Virus record (IMG/VR): IMGVR_UViG_3300023103_000001
Span: 1 to 41,543 of that record
Direction: 5' to 3' (one strand)
DNA from: a virus
Length of the DNA: 41,543 bases
A program made the translations under genes and the position numbers. The notes beneath the pieces were generated by a model that was not told the DNA's origin, searched no databases, and was given only the letters and a program-made list of their open reading frames with translations. Shown here piece after piece: positions 4,748 through 41,028 of the stretch (position 1 is the stretch's first letter; every line of letters begins with the position of its first letter).

Positions 4748-4822
4748 TGGTTCAGGGACTTGGGTTCGAACCAAGCTCTCCGCAGTCAAAGTGCGGCATC
4801 CTACCAGATAGACGATCCCTGA
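4748..4822 (-). tRNA. tRNA-Gln (anticodon UUG)
   Basis: The minus strand folds into a full cloverleaf: acceptor TCAGGGA/TCCCTGA, anticodon stem CCGCA/TGCGG around loop CTTTGAC (anticodon TTG), and T arm CTTGG-TTCGAAC-CCAAG. The discriminator A and an encoded CCA end are present, which suits a mobile tRNA that may not rely on host end-processing. It reads CAA codons. It is second in the leftward tRNA pair. Confidence 0.93.
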
Positions 4823-4825
4823 AAA

Positions 4826-4902
4826 TGGTCTGCGTGGCAGGATTTGAACCTACGACCCCCTGATTCCAAATCAGGTATTCTACCAAACTGAACTACACGC
4901 AG
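4826..4902 (-). tRNA. tRNA-Pro (anticodon UGG)
   Basis: The minus strand gives acceptor CTGCGTG/CACGCAG, D stem GTTC/GAAT, anticodon stem CCTGA/TCAGG with loop TTTGGAA (anticodon TGG), T arm GTAGG-TTCAAAT-CCTGC, discriminator A and an encoded CCA. It lies between the rtcB terminator and tRNA-Gln, with only three bases between the two tRNA genes. Confidence 0.93.
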
Positions 4903-4976: not shown

Positions 4977-6203
4977 TCAACCTTTCACGCACACAACCTG
5001 TCTCAGCGTGTGAACGATTTCGACGTGATCGGCCTGAGCCGACATGACGGCGTCAATGTCCTTGTAGGCTCCAGGGGTCTCATCAATGACCTCCTCGTCC
5101 TTCCGGCATTCCACGCCTTCGGTCGCTTTTATATGGTCTTCTACCGTAAAGCGGCGCTTGGCTTCCGTTCTGGACATGGCGCGACCAGCCCCGTGAGAGC
5201 ACGAGTTCATCGACATGGCCAGAGGAGCCCCGGGCTTGGCCTTCACAATGAAGGATTTCGCCCCCATCGATCCGGGGATGATGCCAAGCTCCGTCTCAGT
5301 AATGCGAACCGCACCCTTTCGCGTCACCATGACCTCGGCCCCAAAGTGGGATTCCTGAGACACATAGTTGTGGTGGCAGTTCACGGCCTCGCAGTCGGTC
5401 ACGAACGGCTTTTCGATGGTCGCCCGCATAGCGTCTAAGGCGGCCTCCATCATCAAGGACCGATTGAGCTTGGCGAAGCCTTGAGCCCACGAAAGCGCCT
5501 TCATGTAGTCAGGATAAAGTGGCGAGCCCTGAGCGATATAGGCGAGGTCTTGATCAGGCAGATTTATGAACCACCGCTTCATTTCCTCCTTCGCCTTTTC
5601 GATGAAGTAGGAGCCGATACGGTTCCCGATACCGCGAGAGCCAGAGTGAAGCATGATCCAGACGCGGTCTTGTTCGTCCAGGCACACCTCAACAAAGTGA
5701 TTCCCCGTCCCCAGAGTACCGAGATGCGACGGAGCGCGTTCCGCAGCCTGACCGATTTTGGGGTGCTTCTCCACGATTTCGGAAAGCCCATGACGCAGAC
5801 GATCAAACTCGGCAGCGTATCTCTCAGGAACATCGCCCCAAGCACCACGATCTCCCGGAGCGCCGTTGTTGGTCCTGCCGTGAGGAATACGGGACTCAAT
5901 TGCGGTGCGAAGTCCGAAGAGATTATCGGGAAGGTCAGAAGCAGTCAGAGACGTTCTCTGAGCGATCATCCCGCAACCGATGTCCACGCCCACGGCCGCA
6001 GGGATAATAGCGCCACGCGTAGGGATAACAGAGCCTACAGTAGCGCCCATACCCCAATGAACGTCAGGCATGACGGCAATGTGCTTATGCACGAATGGCA
6101 TGGCGGCCAGATTATCAATCTGCTTGCGGGCTGCATCCTCTAGCTGGACACCGTCAATCCATGCCTTGACCAAACCTCCTTGAGCGCCCTCAAAAACCTT
6201 CAT
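4977..6203 (-). CDS. rtcB: RtcB-type RNA ligase (3'-phosphate)
   Basis: This 408-residue protein has every RtcB signature: PDVHWG (46-51), GVDIGCGM (72-79, metal-binding Cys77), GTGNHF (165-170), HSGSRG (186-191), NCHHN (275-279), GSMG (311-314) and HGAGR (337-341), where His337 is the expected guanylylated residue. RtcB joins 2',3'-cyclic-phosphate or 3'-phosphate RNA ends to 5'-OH ends using GTP and Mn2+. I chose ATG 6203 over ATG 6230 because GGAG lies 8 bases upstream. It overlaps the 6190-6612 gene, and two tRNA genes follow it, which suggests repair of cleaved tRNA. Confidence 0.95.
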   Translation of the reverse strand: MKVFEGAQGGLVKAWIDGVQLEDAARKQIDNLAAMPFVHKHIAVMPDVHWGMGATVGSVIPTRGAIIPAAVGVDIGCGMIAQRTSLTASDLPDNLFGLRTAIESRIPHGRTNNGAPGDRGAWGDVPERYAAEFDRLRHGLSEIVEKHPKIGQAAERAPSHLGTLGTGNHFVEVCLDEQDRVWIMLHSGSRGIGNRIGSYFIEKAKEEMKRWFINLPDQDLAYIAQGSPLYPDYMKALSWAQGFAKLNRSLMMEAALDAMRATIEKPFVTDCEAVNCHHNYVSQESHFGAEVMVTRKGAVRITETELGIIPGSMGAKSFIVKAKPGAPLAMSMNSCSHGAGRAMSRTEAKRRFTVEDHIKATEGVECRKDEEVIDETPGAYKDIDAVMSAQADHVEIVHTLRQVVCVKG

Positions 6204-6612
6204 TGAAGTTCTCCGTATCCGTCTCTTCACGGATCGTCAGGCCGAAGCCGCCGTAATAGCCGTTGTGTTCGTTGTGGTTGACGATGGAGATGAAGCCCTG
6301 ATCCGTGCCGATCTCGACAAAGACGGTTTCATGCACGTCGTAGTCGCCTTCGACATCAGCCGCCGGTTTGGTTTCGATACGGACCAGCTTTTGTCCCACC
6401 AGAGACGAAGGATCGTCGTCCGTGGTCATATAGCGATGCTCGCAGCACGACTGCCCGTCATCCAGAATGCGGATGCGGGTCCCATCGGAAAACGCGATTT
6501 TCAGCTCGTCGTCTTCGATTTTTGCTGAGCGGATTTCTCGACCGTAGTATTTTTCAGCCGAGTTCTCGGAACCGCCGCCGAGAATGTGCAGCATTGCGCC
6601 GACACCAATCAT
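6190..6612 (-). CDS. DUF7448-like protein, 140 aa
   Basis: The start at 6612 (MIGVGAMLHILGGG) has an excellent AAAGGAGG ribosome site; a longer frame upstream is rejected. The core pattern of short beta strands (KIEDDELKIAFSDGTRIRI), DGQSCCEHRYM, DPSSLVGQKLVRIE and HNEHNGYYGGFGLTI matches the DUF7448 family of phage and bacterial proteins, whose function is not known. It overlaps rtcB by 14 bp and is the first gene of that leftward block, so it may contribute to the same RNA-repair or stress role. Confidence 0.75.
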   Translation of the reverse strand: MIGVGAMLHILGGGSENSAEKYYGREIRSAKIEDDELKIAFSDGTRIRILDDGQSCCEHRYMTTDDDPSSLVGQKLVRIETKPAADVEGDYDVHETVFVEIGTDQGFISIVNHNEHNGYYGGFGLTIREETDTENFNEGF

Positions 6613-7239
6613 AAAAGCCTCCTTTAGTCGTCCAGCCGCAAATGCGAGGCCGGTCGGGTTGAAGATTGCGGGATTTACCGCAAGGCCACTGTAGGCCCTG
6701 ACTAGAAAAAGTCTATGCCACGATTGGAAACTATGGAGCGTTGTCGTTTCGTTTCCTGTGACTTGACGAGATTGCTGCGATAGCGCATCCATAACGGCGA
6801 AGGGCGTCCCCCGCAAAAAGGACGCCCTCCTAAAATCCGTGTTGAAGCCACGGAGAGCTAAGCTCTTAGGTTAAATAGAGCCAAACCCTCCCAACCGCAA
6901 CACAGTTTTAGGCGAAGACGTAAAACCGGGGCTTCCGGTGCGGTCCGCCAGCGCACGTCCTTGTAGTCGGCCTCACTGGGGGAGACTGTGCATGAGGCAA
7001 GCCTAGTCCGTATGACCAAAGGGCGCACAGCGGGGTTTGAGACAGCCTCGAAAAGTAGTGGTCTGGTTTGGCTCGCTCATGAGACCAAACTGTCTGTAGG
7101 CGGGGGCTGGCTCCAAAGGGTCTGGCAACATCGCAAGCAGTCACGGGACGCCTCCCTTTGCTTTTAGCGAGGGAGCGTCGTCCTTTGTCTGAAAACGAAG
7201 GCTTCACCAAAGGGTCTGATAGGTAGGAGATATAGATAG
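6613..7239. promoter_or_regulatory. Gene-free divergent region with many inverted repeats
   Basis: I find no convincing gene in these 627 bases, between the leftward rtcB block and the rightward methyltransferase. They hold TTGCGG-N6-CCGCAA (6666-6683), an 8-bp hairpin GGGCGTCC/GGACGCCC (6802-6827), the 13-base palindrome AGAGCTAAGCTCT (6854-6866), nested stems AGACAG/CTGTCT (7040-7045/7090-7095) and TGGTCT/AGACCA (7059-7064/7082-7087), and a stem of GACG+CTCCCT with AGGGAG+CGTC (7147-7179). CCAAAGGG occurs at 7016, 7113 and 7207. It must contain both outward promoters and could include an origin or a structured RNA. Confidence 0.5.
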
Positions 7240-7956
7240 ATGCAAGATCAAGTCTTTGAGAATGGCACGTTCCTTTTTGGAGATTGCCTTGAGCGAATGA
7301 GCGACCTCGCGCCAAACTCTGTCGATATGATTCTGTGTGATCTTCCCTACGGAGAAGTGTCTCAAAAAAGTTCAGGGCTTCGGCTTCTGGACCGAGGAAT
7401 TGCCGATAGATGCGACATAGACCTGTCTGATCTCGTGGGTCAGTGGCGCAGGATTTGTACCGGTTCGGTTTACGCTTTTTGCGGAACAGAACAGATAAGC
7501 GCTTTGGTCGAGCTGATGCGATCAGCTGGATTTACAACTCGTGTTGGCGCGTGGAACAAGACCAACCCATCGCCTATGAATGGGTCTCGTCTTTGGGTTT
7601 CTGGATTAGAGTTTTGCGTTTTCGGGCGTCTGCCTAAGGCGACCTTCAACGAGCATTGCAAAAAGGCGCTTTGGGACGCGCCGTCCGGACGGGCAAAAAT
7701 CCACCCAACAGAGAAACCGGTCGCTTTATTCCGTCGCCTTATTGAGGCGAGTACGGATGAAGGAATGGTAGTCTTGGATAACTGCGCCGGTAGCGGAACA
7801 ACAGCTATCGCTTGCGAGCAGGCCGGGAGAAAATGGATATGCGTTGAGCGTGATCCTGAATATTTTCAAATGTCAGTTGATAGGATCAGGAAGTACGTAG
7901 TCCCCGATGACCATCGCGATTTGTTGCCCGGCCCGCCCATAAGCAGGCTGCTGTGA
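7240..7956 (+). CDS. Orphan DNA methyltransferase (amino-MTase, beta-class order)
   Basis: The 238-residue protein carries the catalytic motif IV as DLPYG (34-38), then HPTEKP (155-160), and the AdoMet-binding motif I as LDNCAGSGTT (179-188) near the C-terminus, followed by ERDPEYF. This order is that of beta-class N6-adenine or N4-cytosine methyltransferases. No restriction enzyme gene lies beside it, so it probably protects phage DNA from host restriction or alters regulation. GGAG lies about 9 bases upstream of the ATG. It is the first gene of the long rightward stretch. Confidence 0.9.
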   Translation: MQDQVFENGTFLFGDCLERMSDLAPNSVDMILCDLPYGEVSQKSSGLRLLDRGIADRCDIDLSDLVGQWRRICTGSVYAFCGTEQISALVELMRSAGFTTRVGAWNKTNPSPMNGSRLWVSGLEFCVFGRLPKATFNEHCKKALWDAPSGRAKIHPTEKPVALFRRLIEASTDEGMVVLDNCAGSGTTAIACEQAGRKWICVERDPEYFQMSVDRIRKYVVPDDHRDLLPGPPISRLL

Positions 7957-8014
7957 TAGTAAAATGAAACCCTAATACCACCACTACAACGTAACAAGGA
8001 AGAGGAGGACTGAG

Positions 8015-8479
8015 ATGAGGTATTACATCGACTGTGAGTTTGACGGTCACAACGGCCCGCTGCTGAGTTTCGCCATTGTCCGGGAAGACGACCCTTGGAC
8101 GAAAAGCCTGCACGTGACGGTCCGTGCCTTAGCCTACGATGATTGGGTTCTGCACAACGTAGTCTCGGTTATGGACGAGCATGAATCTGCAACAGATGTC
8201 AGCAATGTTCATCCAAATCACGTCGGAGGCTTTTTGCGCAGGTTCATTTCTGACGACGATTCGCCAGTCATCATTGCGGACAGCCCGGTGGATATTGGGC
8301 GATTCTGTCAAGCGTTGATGACGAACGATAGCGGCGACTACTGCCCTAACGACATCGACCTGATAGAGTTTGAGGTTCACGACATCAGTGCATATCCAAC
8401 CGATTTGCCGAGAGCCGTCCAGCACAACGCTTGGTGGGACGCCATGGCGCTGCGCGAGAAGCTGATCCCGAGCGACTGA
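8015..8479 (+). CDS. DEDD-type 3'-5' exonuclease
   Basis: This 154-residue protein has the RNase H-like exonuclease pattern: Asp6 and Glu8 in YIDCEFDG, a second acidic site in IIADSPVDIGRF, and His137 with Asp142 in HNAWWDAMALREKL, which fits the DEDDh group (DnaQ/oligoribonuclease-like). GAGGAGG lies before the ATG. The substrate could be short RNA or DNA ends. Neighbours do not settle the role; it may recycle nucleotides or process host nucleic acid. Confidence 0.8.
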   Translation: MRYYIDCEFDGHNGPLLSFAIVREDDPWTKSLHVTVRALAYDDWVLHNVVSVMDEHESATDVSNVHPNHVGGFLRRFISDDDSPVIIADSPVDIGRFCQALMTNDSGDYCPNDIDLIEFEVHDISAYPTDLPRAVQHNAWWDAMALREKLIPSD

Positions 8480-8480
8480 T

Positions 8481-8527
8481 CCACAACACCCGTGGTACGA
8501 AGCCGAAGGCGTAGTGAACTAAAAACC
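8481..8527 (+). repeat. Dispersed hairpin element, copy G
   Basis: Intergenic copy just after the exonuclease stop. CAACAC.CG.GGTACGAA precedes GCC-GAA-GGC (8502-8510), followed by GTAGTGAA and AAACC, matching copy B on the left and copy D on the right. Confidence 0.5.
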
Positions 8528-8550
8528 TACACCAAGGATGAGATAGGGGG

Positions 8551-8580
8551 TTGACCGATCGTGACCGGTCACGGTATGGA
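8551..8580 (+). promoter_or_regulatory. Promoter-like site with a 14-bp palindrome in its spacer
   Basis: TTGACC (8551-8556) is followed 18 bp later by TATGGA (8575-8580). Between them lies the perfect palindrome CGTGACCGGTCACG (8560-8573), an obvious operator candidate. Downstream a CCGGC-AATGAA-GCCGG hairpin lies before the 8619 gene. The -10 match is poor, so activation or a phage factor may be needed. Confidence 0.5.
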
Positions 8581-8618
8581 TTGGGCACCGGCAATGAAGC
8601 CGGGGTGGAGAGCGAGAG

Positions 8619-8819
8619 ATGTATAGACTGGTGGTTACTCCTGACAATTTCAGCGACACGCCCGATGAATATGAAATCATGTGCGCCGACGTTTATTCCC
8701 TGCGGGCTACGTTCGATCATCATTTCGCTATGGCGGTTCAACACGCCGAATACGAGCGGATCGAAGCTTACACCGGCGACAAAATGATCGCTCTTTATAA
8801 TCGTAAGGGCATCAAATGA
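8619..8819 (+). CDS. Uncharacterised protein, 66 aa
   Basis: A GAGAGCGAGAG purine run lies before the ATG. The sequence (MYRLVVTPDNFSDTPDEYE, then YSLRATFDHHFAMAVQHAEYERIEAY) looks like a small alpha/beta fold with no membrane segment. It is the first gene after the palindromic promoter and overlaps the next gene as ATGA. Family not recognised. Confidence 0.7.
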   Translation: MYRLVVTPDNFSDTPDEYEIMCADVYSLRATFDHHFAMAVQHAEYERIEAYTGDKMIALYNRKGIK

Positions 8820-9004
8820 ACTCATCCTCCCGAAAATCTGCCGAACGTCAGCGCAGGAAGGATTCGGGAGAGAAGCGGATAGACCTCTGGCTTCCGCTAG
8901 CCTCTCAGTTTCACCTCTCCCTTCTAATGGCCAGACATAAAACAAACGCTCCGGAAACAATTCGGATTGTTCTCAAAGAAGCAGTGGAGAAGGATAATGG
9001 CTAA
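8816..9004 (+). CDS. Ribbon-helix-helix-like protein, 62 aa
   Basis: After a basic N-terminus (SSRKSAERQRRKDSGEK), residues 22-58 read RIDLWLPLASQFHLSLLMA then TNAPETIRIVLKEAVEK, which fits one beta strand followed by two helices as in CopG/Arc-type repressors. It overlaps both neighbours. A role in regulating the accessory operon, possibly at the palindrome at 8560-8573, is an inference. Confidence 0.6.
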   Translation: MNSSSRKSAERQRRKDSGEKRIDLWLPLASQFHLSLLMARHKTNAPETIRIVLKEAVEKDNG

Positions 9005-9278
9005 GCGATGGACCGTTGATGAATTGATCGAGCAGGCTTTGATTTTTGCCATTCAGGATCGAGAGGGGTTTGCGGACAGCAACCACTTTGACGATCCGCA
9101 CGGGCGCGAGGCCGCTGATCTGGCGAAGGCGCTTAGGGCCTATCACGCCAAGCGATACAAGAAAGTCCATCTGACTGCCATTGAGAGAGATATGGCTTCG
9201 GCTCAGACGGTGTCGATTTACGACATGATGAAGGGTCCGGCTCTCAAGTTTCCGGGATCGGAGAAGGATAATGGATAG
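8997..9278 (+). CDS. Uncharacterised protein, 93 aa
   Basis: ATG 8997 is preceded by GAGAAGGATA, the same initiation module used by the next gene. The protein begins MAKRWTVDELIEQALIFA and is mainly helical and charged (HGREAADLAKALRAYHAKRYKK). Family not recognised. It overlaps the genes on both sides by eight bases. Confidence 0.7.
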   Translation: MAKRWTVDELIEQALIFAIQDREGFADSNHFDDPHGREAADLAKALRAYHAKRYKKVHLTAIERDMASAQTVSIYDMMKGPALKFPGSEKDNG

Positions 9279-9537
9279 GGTTCCAAAACTACGATATGTC
9301 GTCGTGCCGCTTTCGATGGCTCCTTTCCCGTCGTCGTTTTTGGACGCGATCAACGGATACGCGACCGGCGGCTCTACTCGCTGCTTGGATGCGATCCATG
9401 AAGAGGGGGCGTGGCTGCTCTCCAAAGCACCGTACAGTGATAGGCTGAGCGGAAACGTCTCACCACGCTCGGTAGGTATTTCCGAAGGAAATGAACCAAA
9501 CCCTATTCCCCTTAGAGAAGCGAGTGAGGGACAATGA
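9271..9537 (+). CDS. Uncharacterised protein carrying hairpin element A, 88 aa
   Basis: The N-terminus (MDRVPKLRYVVVPLSMAPF, then LDAINGYATGGSTRCLDAI) looks like a small domain; the last third, from about residue 60, is encoded by dispersed hairpin element A and reads SGNVSPRSVGIS then EGNEPNP. Such a tail is shared with unrelated genes in this region. GAGAAGGATA precedes the ATG. Function unknown. Confidence 0.7.
   Translation: MDRVPKLRYVVVPLSMAPFPSSFLDAINGYATGGSTRCLDAIHEEGAWLLSKAPYSDRLSGNVSPRSVGISEGNEPNPIPLREASEGQ
9451..9497 (+). repeat. Dispersed hairpin element, copy A
   Basis: GGAAACGTCTC, then GGT and a perfect stem ATTTCC (9478-9483), loop GAA, GGAAAT (9487-9492), then GAACC. It lies in frame inside the 9271-9537 gene. 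Confidence 0.75.
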
Positions 9538-9818: not shown

Positions 9819-10027
9819 CCGAAAGGGAGTTTGGCACTTGTCCTAGCGGCTCATGGGGAGCCTGCCCGAATGCCTTTAACACGCACGACAAGGGCTGGCC
9901 GACGATGCGCTGTAAGCTTTCCGGCCAGCACCCTGACCTGTGCCACAACTACAGCAAGCCAATCCGCACAATCCAGAAGCCAGAGTCCTCCCAAAATAAT
10001 CCCAAAGGGGAGAGAAAGAGGGGTTGA
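9815..10027 (+). CDS. Small Cys-rich protein, 70 aa
   Basis: Starting at ATG 9815 (MTEREFGTCPSGSWGAC), it contains Cys residues in CPSG, ACPN and RCKLSG plus HPDLCHN, a set able to bind zinc. The C-terminal third is polar (RTIQKPESSQNNPKGERKRG). It overlaps the preceding gene by four bases. A longer upstream reading in this frame is a shadow. Function unknown. Confidence 0.65.
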   Translation: MTEREFGTCPSGSWGACPNAFNTHDKGWPTMRCKLSGQHPDLCHNYSKPIRTIQKPESSQNNPKGERKRG

Positions 10028-23709: not shown

Positions 23710-24053
23710 GTGTGGTGACTTACTTTGGTGAGTTTCCGGAAGGTCAGGTTGATGCTGAAGGCAAGCCCTTCATCGTTCAACAGGGCTATACTTTCCATCC
23801 GGGAGAGGGCGTCAAGGTCACCGACAAGAACGATCTGCTTGAGCTGACCAAGAACCGTTTCTTCAAAGCGCCTGACAGCGACAAGGAAGAAATCGAACAA
23901 GCCAAGGCCGAAGCCGAAGCTGCGGAGGAGCAAACCCTTCGTGGCTGGTTGCAAGAGCATCAGGTTCCGGTTCACCATCGGGCAGGCCTGAAGGCTCTCC
24001 GCGACGCCAAGAACGAATACCTCTTGGCTCAAGCTGCGGCGGCTGAAGGCTGA
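23706..24053 (+). CDS. Head-associated protein, 115 aa
   Basis: The N-terminal half is a beta-rich stretch (SVVTYFGEFPEGQVDAEGKP, FHPGEGVKVTDKNDLLEL) and the C-terminal half is a charged helix (KEEIEQAKAEAEAAEEQTL). It overlaps both neighbours. Its position before the gp4-like gene suggests a head-completion or head-fibre role, but no family is recognised. Confidence 0.6.
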   Translation: MSVVTYFGEFPEGQVDAEGKPFIVQQGYTFHPGEGVKVTDKNDLLELTKNRFFKAPDSDKEEIEQAKAEAEAAEEQTLRGWLQEHQVPVHHRAGLKALRDAKNEYLLAQAAAAEG

Positions 24054-24691
24054 TGGCGACTACCGCGCGTGATACTATCACTTCGGCCCTTAAGAAGTTG
24101 GGGGTATTGCGCGCGGGCGGTTCCGCGAAGGGCGGGGATGCTGGTGATGCACTGGCGTCCCTGTCCTCGTGGTATCAGGAATTGATCACGAACGGGACGT
24201 GCGGGGTTGTTCGTAATGTTCCGATCAGTTCAAGTCTTGACGCCACGACGGGGTTTAATCAGCACATCAATGTTCTGACCGACGATGAGGTTGATCTTAA
24301 GCTCCCCTCCACGGTTCAATATGAGTATTGGGATACCTATGAGCCTTGCCGGGATTACGGCTGGGGGCTCAATGTCCCTCTTGGCGGAACCTCCGGAATG
24401 AATGTCCCTCCTGATAAATCCGTAGTCAGGATTACGGATCAGTTCGGGCCGGGGCGAGCAACCTATATCTATGATGGGACTGTGCAGCGCTGGATGCGCA
24501 TAGACGCCCTTACGCTGGATGATGAGGCTCCGCTAAGCGCTAGAGGCCCTGATGGGCTGGCGTCGGTTCTGGCGGTTCGTCTGGTTGACGAATACGGGGA
24601 TGCGCTTCTCTCTCCCGCTACCATTCAATCCGCCAACAAATATCGCTTGGCCCTTGTCCAGAACTATAACGGCGGCGATTGCGGATGGTAA
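24053..24691 (+). CDS. P22 gp4-like head-tail adaptor
   Basis: The 212-residue protein shows TARDTITSALKKLGVL, then GDALASLSSWYQELITNG and a later LVDEYGDALLSPATIQSANK, the layout of P22 gp4-type packaged-DNA stabilisation proteins that attach below the portal and close the head after packaging. ATG 24053 overlaps the upstream TGA. The gp10-like partner lies further downstream, separated by a block of fibre-like genes. Confidence 0.8.
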   Translation: MATTARDTITSALKKLGVLRAGGSAKGGDAGDALASLSSWYQELITNGTCGVVRNVPISSSLDATTGFNQHINVLTDDEVDLKLPSTVQYEYWDTYEPCRDYGWGLNVPLGGTSGMNVPPDKSVVRITDQFGPGRATYIYDGTVQRWMRIDALTLDDEAPLSARGPDGLASVLAVRLVDEYGDALLSPATIQSANKYRLALVQNYNGGDCGW

Positions 24692-36591: not shown

Positions 36592-37242
36592 GTGATTTAC
36601 TACACTGTCCTGATTCTGGTGACGGTGGGAGCGCTCTGTAACAAGAGCGCTCTTCCGTATGCACTTGTCTTGTGCACGGTCTGGGCAGTGTTCTGTGTTC
36701 TGGGTCGCTTCGACCTCTACGGCGTTTATCCGTGGGTTGACGCCGTCTCTATCTATCCGCTTGCGATCCTTGCTTGGCTCAGGCCGAGATGGTGGAATGT
36801 GACCTTGGTATGCATTTGTTTTGTAACGGTTACGACGCACCTAGTGTTCTGGACAGCCTACTATTCCGACGTGTATCTAGGTGAGGAGTACAAGACTGCG
36901 TTGAGGTCGCTTTTTCTTTTGTCCATGGCTGTCGCTCTTGTGGGGGATATTGATGTCAAACGACTCGTGGGCCTTGCTGTCGAACGCATGCTGGGCCTTT
37001 TCTCTGGCGCTCCTTCCGCTGGCTTTGCTCGTGGTCTTTCTGGTCAGACTTCCCGGAAAGAAGAAGTAGGTGACCGTCCTTGGTCTGGCGCTGTTCGCCG
37101 TATTCAGCATCGCAAGCATCGGATGGGCGATAGGGAAGTTAACATCTCCTGTAGGGGTGGTGGCAACCAAGCGCCCCTCTGCAATCGACGCTCTGATGTC
37201 GGCTCCAATAGCCGCGTACACATATCCACCAAAGAGGCCTGA
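36592..37242 (+). CDS. Multi-pass membrane protein (lysis region)
   Basis: GTG 36592 directly follows the previous TAG. The first 120 residues hold about four membrane helices (YYTVLILVTVGALCNKSALP, YALVLCTVWAVFCVLG, VTLVCICFVTVTTHLVFW, LRSLFLLSMAVALVG). The last third is basic and Cys-containing and overlaps two other genes in another frame, so it may not be under strong selection. It may be a membrane partner in lysis or exclusion; no family recognised. Confidence 0.6.
   Translation: MIYYTVLILVTVGALCNKSALPYALVLCTVWAVFCVLGRFDLYGVYPWVDAVSIYPLAILAWLRPRWWNVTLVCICFVTVTTHLVFWTAYYSDVYLGEEYKTALRSLFLLSMAVALVGDIDVKRLVGLAVERMLGLFSGAPSAGFARGLSGQTSRKEEVGDRPWSGAVRRIQHRKHRMGDREVNISCRGGGNQAPLCNRRSDVGSNSRVHISTKEA
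36953..37069 (+). CDS. 38-residue membrane protein nested in the previous gene
   Basis: GGGGGA lies before ATG 36953. The product (SNDSWALLSNACWAFSLALL, then VVFLVRLPGKKK) is one membrane helix with a positive C-terminus, a layout common in small holin or antiholin-like proteins. Its TAG is followed at once by the GTG of the next gene in the same frame. Confidence 0.5.
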   Translation: MSNDSWALLSNACWAFSLALLPLALLVVFLVRLPGKKK

Positions 37243-37971: not shown

Positions 37972-38231
37972 AGAACGTCAAAGGTCCCGGCTGGCCCGAC
38001 GCTAGAGGTTGGGTCTCCGTAGCGATGATCGCCATGATGGGGTGGGCTCTCTGGGCTCTCCTGTTTGCCAAGATTCCCGATGAGAACCGAGACCTGTTCA
38101 TTGCCCTTTGCTCTGGCGTGGTTGGCGCAGCAGTGAAGGACATCGTGTCTTTCTATGTGGGTTCGTCCAAGGGTGCCGCCGATGCGAATGCGCGGGTTGA
38201 TGCCGTTATCGAGGCTACGAAAGACAAATGA
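37968..38231 (+). CDS. Putative holin, 87 aa
   Basis: GTG 37968 follows GGAG and overlaps the previous stop. Two membrane helices (WVSVAMIAMMGWALWALLFA and LFIALCSGVVGAAVKDIVSF) end in FYVGSSKGAADANARVD, a tail typical of a phage holin group. It lies directly before the endolysin and overlaps it by four bases. It would make the membrane holes that release or activate the endolysin. Confidence 0.75.
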   Translation: MKNVKGPGWPDARGWVSVAMIAMMGWALWALLFAKIPDENRDLFIALCSGVVGAAVKDIVSFYVGSSKGAADANARVDAVIEATKDK

Positions 38232-38788
38232 CTAATACGGCCCTCTTTGACGCGATCAGGAAGGTCAAGGGGTCGCCCCTGACGCAATCCGACGTGGACA
38301 CCATCAACGCCGCTCTAGGAGGCTCTGTAGGGCCTGCAACGGCGTCTGGCGCGAAGTCTATCGGTGCAGCGGGCCTTTCGCTCATCAAGGAGTTTGAAGG
38401 GCTCCGATTGAAGGCCTATCCGGACCCTGCAACCGGCGGCGAACCGATTACGATAGGCTGGGGCCACACGGGCGGCGTTCCGCTGGGCCTAACCATCTCA
38501 GAGGCTCAGGCCGAGGGGTTCCTGAGGTCTGATCTGGTCCGGTTCGAAAAGGCCGTGAACCGTCTGGCCCCGAAGACTACCAAGAACCAGTTTGATGCTC
38601 TGGTCAGTTTTGCCTTCAATCTGGGCGAAGGCAACCTTGAGAAGTCCACGCTTCTCCGCGCCCACAATGCCGGAAACTATGAAGGCGCTCGCTCTGAGTT
38701 CCTGAGATGGAACCGCGCCAATGGAAAGGTGATGGCGGGTCTGACACGCCGCCGGGAAGCTGAAGCGGCTTTATACGCCAAACCCTAA
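38228..38788 (+). CDS. Endolysin, GH24 lysozyme (T4/P22 gp19 type)
   Basis: The 186-residue protein carries the GH24 active-site stretch with Glu57 (IKEFEGLRLKAY), Asp66 and Thr75 (ITIGWGHTGG), corresponding to T4 lysozyme Glu11, Asp20 and Thr26, then FDALVSFAFNLGEG and the RRREAEAALY end. It cuts the glycan chains of peptidoglycan. The first 45 residues are an extra helical segment, not a signal peptide, so export should depend on the holin. A bidirectional terminator follows. Confidence 0.94.
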   Translation: MTNTALFDAIRKVKGSPLTQSDVDTINAALGGSVGPATASGAKSIGAAGLSLIKEFEGLRLKAYPDPATGGEPITIGWGHTGGVPLGLTISEAQAEGFLRSDLVRFEKAVNRLAPKTTKNQFDALVSFAFNLGEGNLEKSTLLRAHNAGNYEGARSEFLRWNRANGKVMAGLTRRREAEAALYAKP

Positions 38789-38805
38789 AACCAATAAGGG
38801 CAGAG

Positions 38806-38835
38806 ACGGAGGTCTAACGCTCTATCTCTGCCCTT
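38806..38835. terminator. Bidirectional terminator between lysis and leftward operons
   Basis: AAGGGCAGAGA (38806-38816) pairs exactly with TCTCTGCCCTT (38825-38835) around a short loop. It lies between the convergent endolysin and 38857-39210 genes and, having A and T edges, can act in both directions. Confidence 0.75.
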
Positions 38836-38856
38836 TGTACGCTACTGGTTTTGAGT

Positions 38857-39210
38857 TTATGCCTGAGAAAGCCGTTCGCGCAATGCGTAACCTTCTAGGG
38901 GCCAAAGCTGCTTGATGGCGTCTTCGTAGGCGAAACGTTTACCCTTTTCAGGGTCAAAGTTTTCCGGGCTCGCCGGGGCGGACTTACCTATGACGGTAAA
39001 ACCGTTCTGCATCACGAGAATGCAGATCGTAAGCAGCTTCAGAGGATCGCCGGGATAGGTAGCCACGTTCTGCGCCGAGGTGACGGCTTGGTCGGCGGTA
39101 AAGTAGTGCTCCCGGTTGATTTTGCCTTCCATATCCGCGAGCGAAACGCGTGGGTGGGTGGCTTTCGACGCCGAATATTCTTCGGTGGCTTTCAGAGTAT
39201 CGCTGTCCAT
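38857..39210 (-). CDS. Gp49-like phage protein, 117 aa
   Basis: The middle part LTICILVMQNGFTVIGKSAP, ASPENFDPEKGKRFAYEDAI and KQLWPLEGYALRERL matches the phage Gp49/66 family, whose role is not known. GGAG lies upstream of the ATG. It is the last gene of the leftward operon, ending at the bidirectional terminator. Confidence 0.8.
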   Translation of the reverse strand: MDSDTLKATEEYSASKATHPRVSLADMEGKINREHYFTADQAVTSAQNVATYPGDPLKLLTICILVMQNGFTVIGKSAPASPENFDPEKGKRFAYEDAIKQLWPLEGYALRERLSQA

Positions 39211-39246
39211 GTCAGGACTCCAGCTAATGCGTCAGGTTCAACGCAG

Positions 39247-39275
39247 ATGACAGCCTAATCCAAAACCGATACAAT
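39247..39275 (+). promoter_or_regulatory. Near-consensus rightward promoter
   Basis: ATGACA (39247-39252) and TACAAT (39270-39275) match sigma70 boxes at five of six bases each with an ideal 17-bp spacer. The expected transcript starts near 39282, just before an AAGGAG ribosome site. It drives only the small gene 39296-39391 against the direction of the surrounding operon. Confidence 0.7.
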
Positions 39276-39295
39276 CGGCAAGAAGGAGAAAGACG

Positions 39296-39391
39296 ATGGA
39301 AGACGGAAAGATGGTCCGCCTATTGGCTTTGAGTGTCGTCGCCTTTCTCTGCGTTCTGGCTGTTGTCGTGACCTTCGGCTGGCGTCCTTAG
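39296..39391 (+). CDS. 31-residue single-pass membrane protein (moron-like)
   Basis: The product (MEDGKMVRLLALSVVAFLCV, then VVVTFGWRP) is one membrane helix. AAGGAG lies eight bases before the ATG and a near-consensus promoter lies just upstream, so it should be well expressed by the host alone. An independently transcribed small membrane protein inside an opposing operon is typical of a moron, for instance a superinfection-exclusion factor, but the function is not shown. Confidence 0.65.
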   Translation: MEDGKMVRLLALSVVAFLCVLAVVVTFGWRP

Positions 39392-39589
39392 CAGACCCAG
39401 AGCCTGAAGCTGGCCAAGTTTCCTATCGTACGTTTCTATAGCCAGAAACAGCGCTTCGATAGGCGTGCGGACAACCGGTGGGACAAGCATCCACATGGGT
39501 TGTGGCAGAGCATCCCGGACTTGTCGAAGGCGATTGGCCGCGATGGCTACCGGGCCAAGGACTTTGTCGATTTCAGCGATGGGGTTCAT
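39320..39589 (-). CDS. Uncharacterised helical protein, 89 aa
   Basis: AGGAG lies before ATG 39589. The product (MNPIAEIDKVLGPVAIAANR, PIEALFLAIETYDRKLGQLQ) is helical with a polar tail. The last 23 codons overlap, in antisense, the small membrane-protein gene 39296-39391. Family not recognised. Confidence 0.65.
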   Translation of the reverse strand: MNPIAEIDKVLGPVAIAANRLRQVRDALPQPMWMLVPPVVRTPIEALFLAIETYDRKLGQLQALGLLRTPAEGHDNSQNAEKGDDTQSQ

Positions 39590-39597
39590 GTCGGCTC

Positions 39598-39792
39598 CTA
39601 GAGGGCGGCGGTTGATGGATTGTACGGACGAACAGCCGGAGTCGTTCGCTTGTCGCGTTCGGCCTTCAGCCTTGCCATTAGATCAAGGTCTTGTTCAGCG
39701 GTGAACCCGCATCCGGGTCTGATCAGGGAAACATCCGGAGAGCCGCCACCCCAAGCGATGATGAGGTCTAGGTCTCTGTCGGAGAGGGTCAT
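39598..39792 (-). CDS. Uncharacterised protein, 64 aa
   Basis: The product starts MTLSDRDLDLIIAWGGGSPD and contains GFTAEQDLDLMARLKAERDK; it is a small helical protein with a basic tail. Its ATG overlaps the upstream stop. It belongs to the leftward recombination operon. Family not recognised. Confidence 0.65.
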   Translation of the reverse strand: MTLSDRDLDLIIAWGGGSPDVSLIRPGCGFTAEQDLDLMARLKAERDKRTTPAVRPYNPSTAAL

Positions 39793-40384: not shown

Positions 40385-41028
40385 GCAACCGCTCCAGAGG
40401 CCTCTACGATGCGCTCTAGGGTCTCTTCTACCTTCTCCCGCGCCTTGACCCGCATCTGGGCCAGAACACCCTTGTTGGCGTCCCTCCAGAGACGAACGTC
40501 ATCCGCCGTATGAACGCACGTCGTGATGGTCCCAAGAAGAACCCGGAGCGTAGCGCGGCTTTCCGGAGAGCCCCACTCAAACTCTGTCGTGAAGCGTTCC
40601 AACAGAGCCTCAAGCTTGGCGTGTTCGCTTTCCTCGATCTGCTTCCATTGATTCACAGCGACCCACGGAGAGGGAATGTCGTACAGGTAGCGACCAATAC
40701 CCCAGCGGACTGCGGCACGCTTGAAAGCATCCGACAAAGCGCCTTTCTCGGCTTCAATGTCGGAATCGCCTGCGCCATCAGCTTTCCAAACCCAATCTTG
40801 ATCTCCTACATCAATGCCAATGTCGCAGACCGTCTTGTTGCCTGCATGGCTGTATTTGCACTGCCATCCAGAAGGACCGCAGACCTCATCCAGACGGCCC
40901 ATAACGTCACGGGCATCCAGATATGCGAGAGCCATGCCTGACGGCTTGTCCTTCGCCATCTTGCCGATTCGCCATGAGACCTTGTCTGGCGGAAAGGGGG
41001 CGGCGAGAGCGTCAAAGTCGATTGTCAT
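40381..41028 (-). CDS. Rad52/22-type single-strand annealing protein
   Basis: The 215-residue protein contains VSWRIGKM, MALAYLDARDVMGRLDEVCG, DWVWKADGAGDSDIEAEKGA, LSDAFKRAAVRWGIGRYLYD, the core of the phage Rad52/Rad22 family. It anneals complementary single strands for phage recombination and concatemer formation, working with SSB and NinB. The C-terminal third is helical and charged. It overlaps the genes on both sides. Confidence 0.93.
   Translation of the reverse strand: MTIDFDALAAPFPPDKVSWRIGKMAKDKPSGMALAYLDARDVMGRLDEVCGPSGWQCKYSHAGNKTVCDIGIDVGDQDWVWKADGAGDSDIEAEKGALSDAFKRAAVRWGIGRYLYDIPSPWVAVNQWKQIEESEHAKLEALLERFTTEFEWGSPESRATLRVLLGTITTCVHTADDVRLWRDANKGVLAQMRVKAREKVEETLERIVEASGAVA

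Follow-up and report, generated by a model that had tools for sequence, protein, structure and literature searches.

Results

Organisation of the divergent intergenic region

The window, by which we mean the whole stretch of DNA analysed, is a virus record of 41,543 bases that carries genes for a P22-type portal, terminase and capsid, together with an HTH-repressor-like gene at 1598-1852. Within it, a gene-free region of 627 bp (6613-7239, hereafter the gap) lies between two divergent gene groups, in agreement with an earlier reading made from the sequence alone (the sequence-only reading). Counting from the gap, the minus-strand unit comprises a DUF7448 protein of unknown function (6190-6612; PF24240, E 2.3e-17), an RtcB RNA ligase (4977-6203; PF01139, E 6.5e-124), tRNA-Pro(UGG) (4826-4902) and tRNA-Gln(UUG) (4748-4822), while the plus-strand unit begins with an N6/N4 DNA methyltransferase (7240-7956; PF01555, E 1.7e-21). 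The listed RtcB ORF extends to 6230, with homology starting at the ATG at 6203. DUF7448 starts at the minus-strand ATG at 6612, with the Shine-Dalgarno sequence AAAGGAGG, and in its best relatives the family homology runs from residue 2-3 of this start. The methyltransferase starts at the ATG at 7240, with an in-frame TAG ahead of it.

The gap proved to be noncoding as far as tested, with none of five ORFs inside it matching Pfam and a PHROGs search of the same five giving one chance-level match only (E = 0.27). ARAGORN, run with introns allowed, detected no tRNA, intron-containing tRNA or tmRNA in the gap, and a scan of it for sigma-70-like promoters found none. Searching the 4227 families of Rfam yielded no match at the gathering score or at E values up to 5, and the gap therefore holds no GOLLD, ROOL or Y RNA and no intron of a described family. 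Group I and group II introns were likewise ruled out by the lack of a match to the Rfam intron models.

Near relatives share few of their non-structural genes with the window, which marks this part of the genome as a mosaic segment. In the RtcB locus L039, RtcB and both tRNAs share 82% DNA identity with the window and the capsid is only 22% alike, so that RtcB and its tRNAs behave as a mobile accessory module. On the other side of the gap, the stretch 7240-9500 has a lower G+C content (about 0.52), and the genome's own codon model fails to detect the methyltransferase; it is therefore likely that this stretch, methyltransferase included, was recently acquired. No comparable gap precedes the two methyltransferase homologues that were found (63-69% identity), which have genes immediately before them, and the methyltransferase of G005 (26% identity), taken with its upstream stretch, showed no similarity to the gap above that of shuffles. 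A search for the host via the capsid protein in genome contigs found none. The gap is best read as a control region between divergent genes, set within a mosaic segment of accessory genes.

Folding of the gap

Dense inverted repeats had been described in the gap. This holds in part, since on either strand the whole gap shows a modest folding excess over shuffles (z of -3.27 on the plus and -4.12 on the minus strand with 20 shuffles; -1.95 and -2.97 with 24), but few hairpins stand out. Among 66 control tiles of equal length, a single independent tile, 23827-24453 on the plus strand, fell below the minus strand of the gap (pooled-sd z -7.1 versus -3.7), and two more tiles that did so start at 6271 and overlap the gap. 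This plus-strand tile, which has the strongest folding excess of the 66, is a coding stretch around the gene start at 24053.

When 120-nt windows of both strands were ranked, the lowest of the 1036 was 6801-6920 on the minus strand, and the strongest hairpins of the gap are found on the same strand at 6797-6912. Hairpin A (6829-6912, 84 nt, minus strand) has a predicted stem of 33 bp, including 7 G.U pairs, and a 10-nt apical loop, with an energy of -41.5 kcal/mol versus -24.3 kcal/mol on the plus strand. Its z was -7.35 on the minus and -4.49 on the plus strand (200 shuffles each), and on the minus strand none of the 200 shuffles was as low. A 13-base palindrome that had been noted earlier, AGAGCTAAGCTCT, can be read directly at 6854-6866, within hairpin A. 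Hairpin B (6800-6829, minus strand) is a GC-rich stem that directly abuts A (window 6797-6831, z -5.00 on the minus and -3.84 on the plus strand). Hairpin C (6732-6793) folds better as plus-strand RNA (window 6730-6796, z -3.51 on the plus and -0.44 on the minus strand). Hairpin D (7138-7191; window 7136-7196, z -4.21 on the plus and -3.26 on the minus strand) lies upstream of the methyltransferase start and is strong on both strands; neither it nor hairpin E (7065-7091) is assigned to a single strand. One arm of E, GGTTTGGCTC (7065-7074), is perfectly complementary to GAGCCAAACC at 6878-6887 in hairpin A, and these could possibly form an attenuator-like alternative pairing, although a single 10-nt match may be due to chance.

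The large folding advantage of hairpins A and B on the minus strand comes from their mismatches, which are G.U pairs there and A.C on the plus strand. The minus folds contain 11 G.U pairs and the plus folds 1, a count biased toward the minus strand since the choice of hairpin was itself based on low minus-strand energy. This asymmetry in the predicted folds hints at selection on a minus-strand RNA. The base of hairpin A is flanked by A- and U-tracts (CCTAAAA / ATTTTAGG), and a consensus scan of the gap for intrinsic terminators found none, hairpin A having ATTTTAGG at its base but a stem of 33 bp. When the minus-strand leader is folded in full, the Shine-Dalgarno sequence of DUF7448 is predicted to be mostly paired (unpaired probability at most 0.08 at 6618-6622), a long-range prediction of low reliability.

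Eight other intergenic stretches gave z values between -1.52 and +0.80, with the exception of a terminator-like one near 38789-38856. Since this apparent bidirectional terminator reaches z -6.87, the z of hairpin A alone does not place it beyond a terminator. The A/T-flanked hairpin there (38783-38850) lies between convergent genes, an endolysin at 38228-38788 and a gene at 38857-39210. Another strong hairpin, present on both strands, is found at 36600-36658 (GAGCGCTCTGTAACAAGAGCGCTC), where an ORF region begins.

The RtcB-type leader and searches for relatives

The part of the gap next to DUF7448 contains a leader with a Shine-Dalgarno sequence (6608-6689, minus strand) that shares homology with those preceding RtcB in L039 and L004 and, weakly, in L005. 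By blastn, the 80 nt next to DUF7448 were 77-78% identical over 46-52 nt to the L039 and L004 leaders. A profile built from the window, L039 and L004 scored the window row at E 4.8e-21, these three being high by construction, and elsewhere it matched L005, before RtcB, at E 2.8e-5 and L006 and L008 marginally (E 0.063). The conserved RtcB leader consists of a small hairpin and GACTAAAGGAG (5934-6023 in both L039 and L004, 5950-5998 in L005). In the window the leader stands before DUF7448, which thus sits between it and RtcB. A 16-mer of the leader occurred in six IMG/VR stretches, of which L179, L180 and L182 come from the contigs of L039, L004 and L005; the others (L178, L181 and L183) matched none of the window proteins, not even RtcB. 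One part of the L004 RtcB gene lies at each end of its contig, G002 (38693-39748 and 1-312), which makes this contig circular or circularly permuted.

For the remainder of the gap (6690-7239), no relative was found in phages or plasmids by blastn, in virus records, in IMG/VR or in GTDB species genomes, searches that may have missed records very near the window. Whole-record comparison with 18 and then 7 virus records showed only the RtcB-leader stretch above chance, in 2 of the 18. Two sets of six 8-residue patterns matched 18 and 3 IMG/VR stretches and GTDB genomes gave 48 matching stretches, none of them confirmed as relatives of the gap. With a single-sequence covariance model of A+B, 74 sources (952,793 bases) yielded weak matches only beyond the sequence itself, the best being an overlapping plus-strand place (E 0.1), followed by E values of at least 1.7. 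The same model found nothing in 10 whole virus records, a search that had no positive control and is hence uninformative.

The noncoding gap before RtcB measures 275 nt in L039 and, between divergent genes, 248 nt in Mesorhizobium phage Cp1R7A-A1; the L039 counterpart has no excess structure (z 0.00 and -0.27). Of 80 RtcB loci, 50 were examined upstream on a coarse grid, and only L020 (-4.8) was about as strong as the window (-4.9). The structure is therefore not general among RtcB leaders, and we rejected a structured leader as a general trait of phage RtcB.

Association of tRNA-Pro(UGG) with rtcB

Among the 80 RtcB loci, 21 have a tRNA within 300 nt of rtcB, and in 15 this is tRNA-Pro(UGG) (L005-L009, L039, L040, L044, L048, L051, L052, L056, L060, L067 and L072). 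After RtcB genes were collapsed at 90% DNA identity, leaving 70 loci, 13 of 14 tRNA-Pro(UGG) genes lay this near to rtcB versus 19 of 64 other tRNAs (Fisher p = 1.6e-5). The tRNA-Pro(UGG) may be on either side of rtcB, 4-271 nt away, and the window has the same pair. None of ten named RtcB phages has a tRNA-Pro annotated within 700-900 nt (one has a tRNA-Arg), which restricts the link to a subset. The association of tRNA-Pro(UGG) with rtcB is strong in environmental phages, and it points to this tRNA as a concrete candidate substrate for phage RtcB. A limited literature search found no paper on the pairing.

Repeats and base composition

Three copies of CCAAAGGG had been noted at 7016, 7113 and 7207, and both their spacings (97 and 94 bp) and the extension of the last two to CCAAAGGGTCTG were confirmed (7016-7023, 7113-7124 and 7207-7218, all plus strand). 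With a fourth copy at 10002, the whole window contains 4 versus 1.47 expected, and four or more occurred in 5 of 100 shuffles. Clusters in which one 8-mer occurs three times within 240 nt arose in 0.4% of 500 shuffles of the gap alone, while the real window has 2 such clusters versus 0.375 per shuffled window (40 shuffles); the triple is therefore unusual locally and weak genome-wide. It could possibly be an operator repeat or chance. The other cluster of the window is CATCCAGA, three times within 57 nt at 40865-40921, in the Erf gene.

The suggestion that the gap is a replication origin was not supported, as the gap lacks both iterons and an AT-rich stretch and its skew changes only with the switch in gene strand. 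The cumulative skew that had been proposed as a check has its minimum near 6500-7000, where it coincides with that switch. The A+T fraction in 60-nt windows ranges from 0.32 to 0.62, the highest being over the methyltransferase start; the repeats are about 95 bp apart, unlike iterons at about helical-turn multiples; and no replication initiator next to the gap was recognised among the proteins scanned.

Discussion

Structured 5' leader RNAs of phage operons include ones that are cut by RNase III and ones that act in antitermination, HK022 putL/putR being the best described of those with two hairpins. The sequence-only reading had offered a long structured RNA or a leader for the methyltransferase operon. 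A structured leader does agree with our results but the strand does not, since the double hairpin A+B that stands out fits the minus-strand DUF7448-RtcB-tRNA unit. We therefore tentatively put forward, as a reading that has a reasonable though less than even chance of being right, that the gap encodes a minus-strand leader RNA whose double hairpin lies before the RNA-repair unit and acts by processing or termination control. A+B would belong to the 5' leader of a DUF7448-RtcB-tRNA-Pro-tRNA-Gln transcript, and most likely the leader would fold during transcription and set the expression of the RNA-repair genes after initiation. One route would be cutting at an RNase III-type processing site, by which the messenger is trimmed and stabilised; alternatively, transcription might pass or stop at hairpin A, with the upstream complementary arm at 7065-7074 providing the alternative pairing. 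The transcription of the gap, its start sites, the processing or termination and the effect on RtcB are what we infer from the arrangement of genes and predicted hairpins. Such a leader RNA would probably be ordinary phage regulation.

This proposal draws on the minus-strand window that ranked lowest of all those scanned, on the z values of both A and B, on the G.U asymmetry and on the adjoining 80-nt RtcB leader, with DUF7448, RtcB and the tRNAs downstream on the same strand and the other intergenic stretches tested, apart from the apparent terminator, unremarkable. Against it, the searches found no relative of 6690-7239 and hence no covariation support, the L039 counterpart is unstructured, only one of the 50 RtcB loci is similar, and a plain terminator reaches almost the z of hairpin A. 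Furthermore, the promoter scan gave no sigma-70-like candidate, C and D fold better on the plus strand, and the hairpin used to compare G.U pairs had been chosen for its low minus-strand energy. If the leader is real, it would be a site where the phage could regulate RNA-repair genes that it carries as an accessory module, and the RNA signal would move from the methyltransferase side of the gap to the RtcB side.

The hairpins could instead be relics or products of chance in a spacer left by module exchange, accompanied by unremarkable promoters and having no RNA function. The mosaic nature of the segment is consistent with this, as are the RtcB-type leader that now stands before DUF7448, the methyltransferase missed by the codon model and the modest structure of the full gap (z about -2 to -4). 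However, hairpin A lies 7 SD below shuffles and is strand-asymmetric, and 627 bp is long for a spacer in so densely coded a genome; we consider this explanation rather unlikely, though it deserves weight. Somewhat less probable again is that the gap encodes one or more stand-alone small RNAs acting in trans, for example with RtcB, and that hairpin A is a bidirectional-type terminator. The RNA would then be either a short minus-strand transcript from near 7200 ended by A, or a plus-strand RNA holding C and B. The A/T tracts that either strand has at the base of A, a layout shared by the apparent terminator at 38789-38856, would suit this, as would the presence of hairpins on both strands, and diverse bacteria encode Y RNAs beside rtcB (PMC7790460). 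On the other hand, the U-tract is only 4 long, the stem is far longer than those of usual terminators, neither Rfam (up to E 5) nor ARAGORN with introns allowed gave a match or a tRNA-like gene, and there is one weak T-loop-like match only, without a stem.

An element acting at the DNA level, either an operator array of CCAAAGGG/CCAAANNGTCTG repeats or a replication origin with cruciform-forming inverted repeats, seems to us improbable. The three regularly spaced copies of CCAAAGGG are rare in shuffles of the gap and the cumulative skew minimum is near, but the repeat is weak genome-wide, the skew follows gene strand, the gap has no A+T-rich stretch, the spacing is not iteron-like and no initiator gene was recognised nearby. 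The boldest reading would make A+B, as leader or free RNA, a member of an undescribed phage RNA class tied to the RtcB/tRNA-Pro repair module. In the logic of anticodon nucleases, the nuclease cuts leave ends that RtcB joins. Cutting of A+B by a host nuclease would then leave such ends and switch on the RNA-repair genes, a joint claim to which we attach only a very slight probability.

Returning to the leader RNA that we favour, several known systems offer comparison. GOLLD and ROOL RNAs are encoded in phages near tRNA genes (PMC12286853). The gap resembles them as a noncoding structured sequence of several hundred nt near phage tRNA genes, here tRNA-Pro and tRNA-Gln at 1.7-1.9 kb, but it matched no Rfam covariance model at E up to 5 and no relatives of it were found. 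With the bacterial Y RNAs that accompany rsr-rtcBA it shares the position of a noncoding structured sequence beside rtcB; unlike the YrlA type, however, it has no tRNA-like domain, no T-arm and no Rfam match, and no gene for an Rsr/Ro60 partner was seen among the window proteins scanned, which were part of the ORFs.

The put RNA of phage HK022 suppresses termination by binding RNA polymerase. It is described as an element of ~70 nt with two stem-loops downstream of an early promoter, one copy being in each of the divergent leaders, putL and putR (PMC9378689). The likeness lies in a pair of adjoining hairpins in a putative leader next to divergent genes, a comparison that depends on the predicted folds of A+B. 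In contrast to put, A+B span about 116 nt, the genes here are accessory (the RtcB module) and not early operons, and the other arm of the gap has no similar element, only two 10-nt inverted matches being present between the arms. Lastly, the L039 gap lacks excess structure and homology of the L039 and L004 gaps to that of the window is limited to the last ~80 nt, but in these loci, as in Mesorhizobium phage Cp1R7A-A1 and in the window, RtcB is transcribed away from a noncoding gap.
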